Source: Prevotella melaninogenica
Lineage (GTDB): Bacteria; Bacteroidota; Bacteroidia; Bacteroidales; Bacteroidaceae
Length of the DNA: 64,000 nucleotides
Reading direction: 5' to 3'
Assembly: GCF_018127965.1 (NCBI RefSeq)
Contig: NZ_CP072349.1
Span: 1,368,001 to 1,432,000, forward strand
A program made the translations under genes and the position numbers. The notes under the pieces are model-generated. The model worked only from the letters and a program-made list of their open reading frames with translations. It did not search any database and was not told where the DNA came from. Positions 10,130-60,462 of the stretch are shown piece by piece; within the stretch, counting starts at the first letter, position 1; each line of letters begins with the position of its first letter.

Positions 10130-10419
10130 CATATTTTCCTCAACTCTCACAAGTTCAAAACCAAGTGAATTTTCATTTTATGGCTCTTCCGCTAAATGTG
10201 AGGTTGCTTTTCATATAGCTTTAACGGAGAATCCGAAGAAAGTCATTAAACAAAGATATAGATAAGACTCTCAACAGTCTATCATACTATCCCCGCCAAC
10301 ACAGAAGCCTTCTTCATTTTAATACTTCAAAGATCCCGTAGATAGAGCTTTGAAAAATCATTACATAAATCCAAGTAAGACCTCTATAAATAAGGACAAA
10401 AACACACATAAAAAGCAGG

Positions 10420-10573
10420 TTTGCAACCAACAGAAAATCAATTAGTTATAAAGTAGCGCAAGAAAAGGTGCTTAATTGGACTCCCAAAGGGCGTTAGTTA
10501 GAGCTCAAAAGGGCACCTTTTACAAGCCAATTAGCCGTCTTTTAGAAGCCAAAAGACCACGTATTGATTTCGA
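10420..10573 (+). repeat. Family A 22-nt periodic repeat, copy 2
   Basis: Five consecutive 22-base units run from 10464 to 10573; units 1-3 begin AAAGG. They are preceded by a flank (10420-10463) shared with copy 1. Unit 3 has the palindrome AAAAGGGCACCTTTT, and AAAAGGTGC of unit 1 can pair with GCACCTTTT of unit 3. An apparent reading frame over the repeat (10476-10754) has no known features and is not called as a gene. The rest of the 10089-11004 gap holds the two promoters listed and nothing else recognised. Confidence 0.8.
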
Positions 10574-10975
10574 ATCGTATGAAAATAGTTTACAAATACC
10601 AAACAAAAAGGAAATAAGTTGTTTACAGAAAATAGATATACATGGTATCAATTTGTATTTTACCCTGCAGTTTATCCTCCTTTGTGAAAGTAACAGATAT
10701 AAGAAAGTAATATCATGCAAGTGTATAACCCTTTATTCAATTCACAACCAATAAATTAATGGAAGAACCTTAAGGCATACAATTTCTCTCAAAAAACTTA
10801 GGGTTAAGACCCTCAGAAAGCCTCGTAATCCGACCGAAAGACACGGATCTATCTTCAACACAAAGATTGACAAAGGATATTCAAGTCCTTGCTGCAATCG
10901 CTCACAATGATTTACGAACCAACCTTAAAGACAGGAATAGTTGTTAATTCATTCGTTTATTACAGCGAAATTACG

Positions 10976-20856: not shown

Positions 20857-20926
20857 GTTTGCTTGGTGCGAAGCCTCCGCACCATTGGTGCTTACCATCC
20901 GCACCACACGTGCTAAGGCTCCGCAC
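20857..20926 (+). repeat. Family B 22-nt periodic repeat, copy 1
   Basis: Units start at 20857, 20879, 20901 and 20923. Each complete unit is a 13-base palindrome (GCACCATTGGTGC, GCACCACACGTGC) plus a nine-base spacer (TTACCATCC, TAAGGCTCC). The first unit keeps only the right arm (GGTGC). It fills the gap between the convergent frameshifted genes; an apparent reading frame across it (20747-21022) is not called. Confidence 0.8.
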
Positions 20927-30152: not shown

Positions 30153-30214
30153 TTTTTGTTTATTTTAATTACGTAATACAATAGATTTTGGTTTCATTAT
30201 CTTAACAGATGGGA

Positions 30215-30244
30215 CAAAGATACAAATAAGATTTGAGATACAAA
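30215..30244 (-). promoter_or_regulatory. Promoter of the hexosaminidase gene
   Basis: On the minus strand TTTG (30241-30244) lies 18 bases before TATCTTTG (30215-30222), fitting the -33/-7 pattern, 63 bases before the start at 30152. Confidence 0.65.
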
Positions 30245-30426
30245 CATTTTCTATCGGCTTACTTCTTAAACACAAAGGGTATTGTTCGTTTTAGTCGATA
30301 ATACAAACGAGATTGTTAACCCCACGTCATCACTCGTGACACGCTTTCTTTCCACCATAGGGTAAGACACAGATAGCCCTTTTTGCGCTACGTATAATAG
30401 GCATTTTGCAAGGCTATAAACCGTCC

Positions 30427-30497
30427 GCACCATTGGTGTTCACCATGCGCACCATTGGTGCTGCGGCTCCGCACAACATGTGCTAAGCATCTGCACG
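30427..30497 (+). repeat. Family B 22-nt periodic repeat, copy 2
   Basis: Units at 30427, 30449 and 30471 followed by a partial unit GCACG. The palindromes are GCACCATTGGTGT (ending in a G-T wobble), GCACCATTGGTGC and GCACAACATGTGC, with spacers TCACCATGC, TGCGGCTCC and TAAGCATCT. The rest of the 30153-30642 gap holds the hexosaminidase promoter, the tRNA terminator and nothing else recognised. Confidence 0.8.
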
Positions 30498-30597
30498 TTT
30501 ACAAGAAAGGGAAGAAAGGATTTATTATTGCCCACTCTCAACATGGGCTAAAGGAACATATGACGTAATATAGGTCATCTGTATGATTTTTATCAAC

Positions 30598-30626
30598 AAA
30601 AAAAGAGGCCATAACAGCCTCTTTTG
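30598..30626 (-). terminator. Terminator of tRNA-Pro
   Basis: AAAAGAGGC (30601-30609) pairs with GCCTCTTTT (30617-30625) around a seven-base loop. On the minus strand it ends in a run of T, 17 bases after the tRNA. Confidence 0.85.
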
Positions 30627-30642
30627 TAATCATATTTCACAG

Positions 30643-30717
30643 TCGGGATGACCAGACTCGAACTGGCGACCACTGGTCCCCCAGACCAGCATTCTAAACC
30701 TACTGAACTACATCCCG
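30643..30717 (-). tRNA. tRNA-Pro (anticodon GGG)
   Basis: Read on the minus strand, a 75-base cloverleaf: acceptor arm CGGGATG/CATCCCG (seven pairs), D arm with GTTC/GAAT, anticodon arm CTGGT/ACCAG with loop CTGGGGG giving anticodon GGG, and T arm GCCAG/CTGGT with loop TTCGAGT. The discriminator base is A. The 3' CCA is not encoded, so the CCA-adding enzyme at 8.7-10.1 kb is needed. It has its own promoter and terminator. Confidence 0.95.
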
Positions 30718-30733
30718 CTCTTTTTAAAGCAAT

Positions 30734-30766
30734 GCAAAATTAGTTACTTTCCACCATATTAGCAAA
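30734..30766 (-). promoter_or_regulatory. Promoter of tRNA-Pro
   Basis: Minus-strand TTTG (30763-30766) and TAATTTTGC (30734-30742) are 20 bases apart, an excellent match to the Bacteroidetes promoter; the tRNA starts 17 bases downstream. Confidence 0.8.
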
Positions 30767-30805
30767 CTTTTGGACTTCTTTTTCTCTTATCCCAAGTTTA
30801 TTTCG

Positions 30806-30813
30806 TACTTTTG
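30806..30813 (+). promoter_or_regulatory. -7 promoter element for aroA
   Basis: TACTTTTG fits TAnnTTTG and lies 29 bases before the aroA start. It is divergent from the tRNA-Pro promoter. Confidence 0.6.
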
Positions 30814-30841
30814 TCCTACAATAAATCTGCACTAAATACAC

Positions 30842-38376: not shown

Positions 38377-38524
38377 CAAGAAGGGGACATCAAAAGTAGT
38401 TCATGCGAATGCGAAATATCTTTACATAAATTGCCGTTCATTGGGTAATTTAAAGGGATACAAACGCATTTTTGAGCACACTTGTAACTGTCTTGTATTC
38501 AAAACGTTACAAAACAGCAAAAGA

Positions 38525-38634
38525 AAAGGTGCTTTATAAGCCTCTTAAAGGGCGTTAGTAAGACCTCAAAAGGACGTCTTTTAGAAGTCAATTAAGGCTC
38601 AATTCGAATGCAATTAAGCATCAATTGAAAATGT
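38525..38634 (+). repeat. Family A 22-nt periodic repeat, copy 3
   Basis: Five exact 22-base units at 38525, 38547, 38569, 38591 and 38613. Unit 2 (GGGCGTTAGTAAGACCTCA) is nearly the same as unit 2 of copies 1 and 2. Units 4 and 5 both begin ATTAAG. The palindromic core of unit 3 is AAAAGGACGTCTTTT. A flank with TTCAAAACGTTACAAAACAG weakly resembles that of copies 1 and 2. The 38377-38705 gap contains otherwise only the terminator below. Confidence 0.8.
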
Positions 38635-47330: not shown

Positions 47331-47399
47331 TCCGCACCATTGGTGCGAAGCCTTAGCACAATATGTGCGAAGCCTTAACACGTCATGTGCGCAGCAATA
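47331..47399 (-). repeat. Family B 22-nt periodic repeat, copy 3
   Basis: Units at 47334, 47356 and 47378. Palindromes are GCACCATTGGTGC, GCACAATATGTGC and ACACGTCATGTGC; the spacer is GAAGCCTTA, which on the minus strand reads TAAGGCTTC, close to TAAGGCTCC of copy 1. The element is therefore oriented opposite to copies 1, 2 and 5. Confidence 0.8.
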
Positions 47400-54870: not shown

Positions 54871-54938
54871 CCGCACATGTGGTGCGGAGGCTCAGCACGC
54901 ATGGTGCGGAGGGCTAACACCAATGGTGTTGCATATTA
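54871..54938 (-). repeat. Family B 22-nt periodic repeat, copy 4
   Basis: Units at 54873, 54895 and 54917. ACACCAATGGTGT in the third unit differs from GCACCATTGGTGC of other copies by a paired end change that keeps the stem. Spacers on the minus strand (TGAGCCTCC, TAGCCCTCC) match the family. It sits inside the SusCD operon gap. Confidence 0.8.
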
Positions 54939-60396: not shown

Positions 60397-60462
60397 GTAC
60401 CATTGGTGCTAAGGCTCCGCACCTATAGTGCTAACCATCAACACAAAGTGTGCTGACCATCA
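60397..60462 (+). repeat. Family B 22-nt periodic repeat, copy 5
   Basis: Units at 60397, 60419 and 60441 with cores GTACCATTGGTGC, GCACCTATAGTGC and ACACAAAGTGTGC and spacers TAAGGCTCC, TAACCATCA and TGACCATCA. The first unit is nearly identical to those of copies 1 and 2. Confidence 0.8.

Follow-up and report, generated by a model that had tools for sequence, protein, structure and literature searches.

BrickBuilt of Porphyromonas gingivalis is a minisatellite within a MITE. According to the available text of its description, it consists of intergenic 23-nt tandem units, is present in 19 copies in its strain and carries terminal inverted repeats resembling those of the IS5 family (PMC4596501). 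PINSR is, in the accessible part of the report, a lineage-specific 188-bp intergenic repeat of Prevotella intermedia and its relatives, with ~180 copies per genome at positions that are largely kept between strains; P. disiens was PINSR-positive by PCR (PMC4755523). GTAG/CGTC REP elements are abundant short intergenic palindromes, and the main text of their description, as far as available, does not include Prevotella (PMC3733652).

Here we analysed 64,000 nt of the Prevotella melaninogenica genome (the window), in which rows of palindromes of the form GCAC-N5-GTGC recur every 22 bases between genes. These arrays resemble BrickBuilt in being short tandem units, intergenic, present in several copies per genome and found in the same bacterial order. 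They differ in number (~230 arrays against 19 copies) and in unit length (22 nt against 23 nt), and terminal repeats of the IS5 type are, from the text available, a property of BrickBuilt. PINSR is likewise intergenic, abundant, lineage-specific and stable in position, and P. disiens, which is PINSR-positive, also carries an array of the GCAC family. The two are set apart by description, as the accessible part of the PINSR report mentions no 22-nt tandem dyads. REP palindromes are, on the text available, also intergenic and abundant, and the Prevotella arrays differ from them by the fixed 22-nt tandem step.

Plasmids and phages have iteron and operator arrays, in which sites of ~17-22 bp recur at about two helix turns. 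Each of these is tied to a single origin or switch, whereas the Prevotella arrays are scattered along the chromosome. Pneumococcal BOX elements are modular, with one end, a variable count of inner units and another end, the inner unit being longer. Comparable ends have weak support in the Prevotella arrays. In the literature covered, which extends to few subscription papers and includes the accessible text of PMC4596501, PMC4755523, PMC3733652 and PMC5771137 (a P. gingivalis resequencing study), a 22-nt dyad array in Prevotella is undescribed; a search of accessible text with two unit sequences returned papers on other subjects only.

Five arrays in the window

Exact matches to GCACN5GTGC numbered nine in the window, compared with 0.75 expected (mean of 100 shuffles, largest 4). 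The sequence-only reading of this DNA had placed five intergenic copies in it; all five were present, and the step was exactly 22 throughout. Listing dyad starts that carry at least six of the eight core letters gives the following.

20857..20926, plus strand: copy 1, full dyads at 20879 and 20901, preceded by a GTGC half unit and followed by a GCAC half; convergent gap
30427..30496, plus strand: copy 2 (focal copy), dyads at 30427, 30449 and 30471, final GCAC half at 30493-30496
47334..47390, minus strand: copy 3, dyads at 47334, 47356 and 47378; convergent gap
54873..54929, minus strand: copy 4, dyads at 54873, 54895 and 54917, the last being ACAC...GTGT; tandem gap
60397..60453, plus strand: copy 5, dyads at 60397, 60419 and 60441; gap convergent according to a simple ORF caller

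Both orientations had been claimed for these copies, and strands (+, +, -, -, +) can indeed be assigned, but because of the near-symmetry of the array its orientation is weakly defined. The focal copy lies ~145 bases from a tRNA-Pro gene on the minus strand (30642-30717), which was the only match to an Rfam family in the window; the arrays had none.

Abundance and anatomy of the arrays

In the whole P. melaninogenica genome (G000; 3.22 Mb, two contigs), a 26-base pattern allowing at most one mismatch matched 297 times on the forward and 284 times on the reverse strand, and the same pattern with its letters reversed matched 4 and 6 times. A 35-base double dyad gave 78 exact forward matches and its control none. 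When arrays were called less strictly, from two dyads upwards with 14 core matches summed (the looser rule), the opening 400 kb of contig 1 and 400 kb from a sister species (G145) held 29 each, and the window held 5; with reversed letters the counts were 1, 0 and 0, and a second control gave none in any of the three. Another 100 kb elsewhere on contig 1 held nine. The genome accordingly carries about 230 arrays, extrapolated from 29 in 400 kb. Three dyads per array were usual in both species (3, 2 and 4 dyads in 21, 7 and 1 of the 29 arrays of G000, and in 15, 11 and 3 of the 29 of G145).

We described the unit from 49 arrays (135 units, 184 junctions), leaving out the 14 arrays of the sister species that lie in a block shared with G000. 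The consensus was RCAC-N5-GTGY-KRASSMTYM, with a spacer of approximately KRASSMTYM. CAC and GTG were near-invariant and the outer letters were R and Y, the near-invariance being partly built in because the array-finding rule demanded six of eight core letters. An equally valid reading divides the unit into a 17-bp dyad with 7-bp arms, GTGYKRA-N3-TYMRCAC, and a 5-bp linker. The idea that arrays always end in complete 17-bp dyads on both sides failed; 2, 3 and 4 such dyads were found in 14, 27 and 8 of the 49 arrays. Some copies have common flanks of ~50-60 nt on either side that resemble imperfect inverted repeats, suggesting that the element may exceed the dyads. Flank models built from 16 hand-picked seeds matched 21 and 15 times near arrays and 3 and 0 times elsewhere, which is limited support beyond the seeds themselves.

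Two familiar classes did not fit. A REP family with a RAYT gene was rejected, as PF01797 had no match in G000 (the control was positive in 5 of 14 genomes) and the unit consensus has no fixed GTAG/CGTC tag at the foot of the palindrome. A CRISPR array was rejected as well: dyad and spacer both differ from unit to unit, and the spacers share one consensus.

Gene context

We placed 63 arrays with a simple ORF caller, whose single calls can be wrong. Convergent gaps held 18 arrays, divergent gaps 16 and tandem gaps 25, and four arrays fell inside called ORFs, so that 59 of 63 bear out the claim that the arrays lie outside genes. Two of those four represent the same orthologous locus, upstream of uvrC, and the ORF there seems to have been called with a false early start. 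The available gaps of at least 150 nt comprised 63 convergent, 67 divergent and 185 tandem ones, tandem gaps being somewhat under-used relative to availability. All three gap types are occupied and the arrays are not confined to 3' ends, so a reading as 3'-end elements was rejected.

The 52 listed exact double-dyad loci of contig 1 lay nearer to parS than a uniform spread would place them (mean distance, p=0.0008), with seven within 25 kb of parS compared with 1.4 expected. By the looser rule, the first 400 kb divide into 100 kb around parS with 11 arrays and a remaining 300 kb with 18; the 100 kb on the far side are those with the nine arrays given above. Because the closeness to parS was tied to the stricter search, an origin-linked or nucleoid-occlusion pattern was dropped after the looser-rule counts. 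One array, G000:C1:92730-92799, abuts TGTTTCACGTGGAACA, a perfect parS-like site, and another parS-like site is found ~830 nt off. The array lies near mnmG, apt and uvrC-like genes, its orthologous place is G145:C1 ~62864, and its spacers TGACGTGAA and CAACGCGAA are similar to a parS half. Multiple ParB paralogues binding parS-like dyads were considered and rejected, as G000 has a single ParB_N gene.

Comparison with sister and close species

G000 and G145 share a block of ~158 kb that aligned at ~95%. Within it, 13 of the 14 arrays of G000 had a positional counterpart in G145, as did 13 of the 14 arrays of G145 in G000, so the arrays look like old, vertically inherited sequences whose positions were kept between the two species. 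Dyad number is less stable: it was unequal in 4 of the 13 orthologous arrays, changing from 3 to 2 three times and from 2 to 4 once. Distances between unique anchors, measurable in 12 cases, were equal in seven and differed by 22, 22, 44, 66 and 10 nt in the other five.

Differences between the orthologous arrays amounted to 10/379 in the core, 8/175 in N5 and 30/423 in N9, and to 104/1116 and 173/2721 in the flanks at 14-60 nt and 60-180 nt. The core differs from the pooled spacers (38/598) with p=0.009, and from the nearer and farther flanks with p=5e-6 and p=0.002. The core is slower-changing than its surroundings, which shows constraint.

Single copies of the window were followed into further species. 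At the focal copy, G145 is one 22-nt unit shorter and two other genomes (G290, G389) carry a diverged array. In G545 the slice examined holds other intergenic sequence and no array, and in the more distant G124 and G361 no aligning array was found. For copy 3 the array is kept in G290 and G545; in G145 array letters lie further away with other sequence between, and in G389 there was no array within the ~300 nt examined.

The gap at 30153-30841 of the window has very unlike intergenic sequence among species that are close in the neighbouring gene, and there G290 resembles the more distant G389 (G290, G389 and G545 were compared). It looks as if whole gaps had been exchanged by recombination at this place.

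Double-stranded sites or RNA hairpins

The sequence-only reading had left two options open, a binding array with all palindromes on one DNA face or a string of small RNA hairpins, and had taken ACAC...GTGT in copy 4 for a compensating change. Among the 135 units, the outer pair (positions 1 and 13) was G-C in 82, A-C in 24, G-T in 23, A-T in 4 and other in 2. The two positions vary independently (Fisher p=0.44), and the frequency of ACAC...GTGT is that of a chance combination, so that it does not count as compensation. In the sense direction of 23 arrays in tandem gaps, the outer pair of the dyad was G.T in 13 cases and A.C in 9, and the pair facing each other over the spacer was T.G in 24 and C.A in 23; there was no strand bias of G.T over A.C in this set. 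Lack of outer-pair covariation together with lack of strand bias favours double-stranded, operator-like sites over RNA hairpins. The dyads are constrained and strand-symmetric and follow a helix-phased 22-bp step, as in an operator array. Of the two options, binding gains from the spacing, the slow core and the two null results, and the hairpin half loses for the GCAC family, although arrays of this geometry in one other genus do keep pairing.

That genus (g15; genomes G518 and G579) has long 22-nt hairpin arrays, one with 21 units. Its stem letters change in blocks with pairing kept, and T.G pairs are frequent. In 38 distinct units, pair 3-13 was G-C in 12, T.G in 11, C-G in 10, C.A in 3 and other in 2, and pair 5-11 was A-T in 19, C-G in 13 and other in 6. 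Over five positions we counted 122 Watson-Crick pairs, whereas 2000 shuffles averaged 107.2 (sd 5.0) and reached at most 125; the statistic ignores descent among units. With respect to genes, the T.G pairs of g15 had no consistent direction.

Range across genomes

The period proposed from the window holds up elsewhere: other Prevotella species have a 22-nt frame as well, filled with inner letters that differ by species. Thus neither outcome named in advance as refuting the sequence-only reading, units inside genes at a random rate or a period lost in other genomes, was seen. Of 200 genomes in the GTDB genus, 69 contained the exact 26-base pattern, mostly with few matches, and the reversed control likewise gave a few matches per genome (12+8 in one). 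Clearly above this control were G000, G145 (100+113), G011 (29+29) and G159 (10+9). The double dyad was found in 11 of 399 genomes of the family, in 3 of 30 genera, with 78, 73, 72, 65, 31, 21, 11, 7, 3, 1 and 1 forward matches, and in 2 of 148 genomes of the class, G000 being one. A three-dyad pattern matched at least 120 stretches in named genomes. Among the matches listed were Prevotella histicola, P. multiformis, P. disiens, Prevotella sp. AGR2160, rumen Prevotella assemblies and Segatella buccae, as well as stray matches in unrelated bacteria, among them Paracoccus and Streptomyces. The double-dyad pattern was also present in 46 stretches of IMG/VR viral contigs, which bears on a possible phage origin.

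A 22-base step in unrelated repeats

The commonest period among tandem repeats was 22 in both genomes (60 of 175 rows in G000, 37 of 155 in G145), and 40 and 24 of these rows, respectively, were intergenic and outside the GCAC family. When all intergenic DNA, including the GCAC family, was tested for repeats at fixed lags, 45 loci were found at lag 22 in G000, compared with a median of 0.5 at other lags, and 29 in G145, compared with a median of 0.

Several unit types contribute. Dyads of TTTTCATGAAAA, whose palindromy is clear by inspection, recur every 22 nt in 25 chains, 16 in 400 kb of G000 and 9 in 400 kb of G145; 17 of the 25 have four dyads, and among periods 18-26 chains of at least three occur solely at 22. 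These arrays are often flanked by GAATTA and TAATTC (e.g. G000:C1 101701-101803 and 129455-129538). Units of 22 nt of the AAAGGGC type are part of a larger dispersed element, and AAAAAGGTTGACCTTTT represents a further unrelated 22-nt unit type of G000 and G145. A dispersed repeat of up to ~500 nt, composed partly of AAAGGGC-type units, lies in the window at 1060-1330, 10170-10780 and 38500-38620; these stretches gave 51, 54 and 45 BLAST hits in ~864 kb (G000, G145 and the window). A 22-nt minisatellite, TGTTACTCTGTCTTACTTACCC, has 11 copies at G000:C1:133396-133640 and a counterpart of 10 copies in G145.

Beyond this genus, 21 of 42 rows in G207 (genus g8) and 16 of 46 in G209 (genus g10) had period 22, with units such as AAACAATATTGTTT and GGAGCGTGCTCC; rows partly overlap one another or called ORFs, and distinct arrays number 17 and 16. 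In the joined sample of G207, 128404-128636 and 148542-148800 are composite blocks of three adjacent 22-nt arrays with two palindromes. With GCAC arrays included, period-22 rows made up 6 of 40 in G290 and 10 of 24 in G545. The peak was missing in G208 (1 of 20 rows), G204 (1 of 21) and S. buccae (0 of 8). Seven other 40-kb samples contained none apart from two rows in G202, and 20 stretches from the class, two of them fully masked, gave five rows, three of them at one locus. It is well supported that the 22-bp step is shared by unrelated families in the genus of G000 and two further genera.

Whether palindromy goes with the step is less clear. In a per-unit shuffle test (p<0.05), 47% of 15 GCAC units in G000 and 33% of 9 in G145 passed, compared with 0 of 41 and 0 of 26 other period-22 repeats and with 15% of 39 and 14% of 35 repeats of other periods. 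At the same level, period-22 repeats passed in 35% of 17 cases in G207, 6% of 16 in G209, 20% of 5 in G290 and 0 of 4 in G545. As the test supports the GCAC units and part of G207 alone, it does not establish the class as a whole as palindromic. Hairpin arrays outside the GCAC family, many of them A/T-rich, made up 15, 14 and 2 rows in G000, G145 and the window, and a one-shuffle control 1, 3 and 0.

Discussion

The arrays are a real and abundant intergenic repeat family of a known class, the interspersed intergenic palindromic repeats. The unexpected part is the 22-bp step common to unrelated families.

We tentatively favour, with a chance of being right that we put a little below even, the reading that the arrays are operator-like dyad sites for a putative DNA-binding protein, carried in old, vertically inherited intergenic repeats. 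The working part would be a short row of double-stranded dyads, mostly three, 22 bp or about two helix turns apart. A putative dimeric protein would recognise the half-site GTGYKRA and its mirror, and neighbouring dyads might be filled cooperatively on one DNA face. Intergenic DNA would in this way be marked or organised at ~230 places, with a putative role in nucleoid organisation or broad regulation. Binding gains from outer letters that vary independently as R and Y, like those of a protein half-site, and from the slowly changing core, the exact step, the use of all gap types and the 13 of 14 positions kept. Against it count the loss of an array from a gap in a close species (the focal copy in G545), the lability of dyad number in 4 of 13 orthologous arrays, the fact that CAC/GTG look near-invariant in part because the core was used to find the arrays, and the pair-keeping in g15, T.G included, which would be needless for one sequence-specific protein.

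The arrays could instead be relics of a non-autonomous mobile element, MITE- or BOX-like and comparable with BrickBuilt, that a transposase supplied in trans once dispersed; the 22-nt units would then be an internal minisatellite that has no function today. The many dispersed copies, the flanks of a subset that look like imperfect inverted repeats, and the gain and loss of whole units between orthologous arrays speak for such an origin, and BrickBuilt is, on the text available, a 23-nt tandem repeat within a MITE in the same order (PMC4596501). We nevertheless regard it as unlikely: the core changes more slowly than its surroundings, recent movement is not seen in the block where two species have 13 of 14 positions in common, the flank models find little past their seeds, and G000 has no Y1 transposase. 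Small RNA hairpin strings in transcripts, serving as terminators, stabilisers or RNA sites for a protein, are improbable. The palindromic units and the g15 stems that change yet keep pairing (122 Watson-Crick pairs compared with 107.2) would agree with hairpins, but in the GCAC family the outer pair is without covariation (p=0.44) and strand bias is absent, the gaps that were called divergent contain 16 of the 63 arrays, the window has no Rfam match save the tRNA, and the T.G pairs of g15 show no consistent direction with respect to genes.

A duplication process that copies 22-bp steps, whether by slippage or by a nuclease or protein ruler, would make the step mechanical and let the families differ. 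It draws on the lead of period 22 among unrelated repeats (40 and 24 non-family intergenic rows in G000 and G145; 21 of 42 and 16 of 46 rows in g8 and g10), on the lag-22 loci of all families (45 against a median of 0.5, 29 against 0) and on the differences of 22, 22, 44 and 66 nt, plus one of 10, between orthologous arrays. By itself, such a process leaves both the ~230 dispersed copies of one sequence and the slow change of the core unexplained, and the peak is missing in several sampled relatives (0 of 8, 1 of 21 and 1 of 20 rows); we consider it improbable as the source of the arrays. A broader proposal, to which we give some credence while leaning against it, is that Prevotella and related genera have a class of intergenic elements set by geometry and not by sequence, the product of one undescribed machinery. 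Its members would consist of a few units, commonly dyads, spaced by exactly 22 bp, with letters replaced between families and genera. The machinery that builds and keeps them might be a process that duplicates DNA in 22-bp steps, or else a set of DNA-binding proteins related to one another.

With about 230 arrays maintained between genes, an oral genus would have a large non-coding feature that has gone unrecognised. Should a protein bind them, the arrays point to an undescribed nucleoid or regulatory factor of Prevotella and offer a simple bait for it. If the shared step of unrelated repeats holds, the question becomes what measures 22 bp in these genomes.
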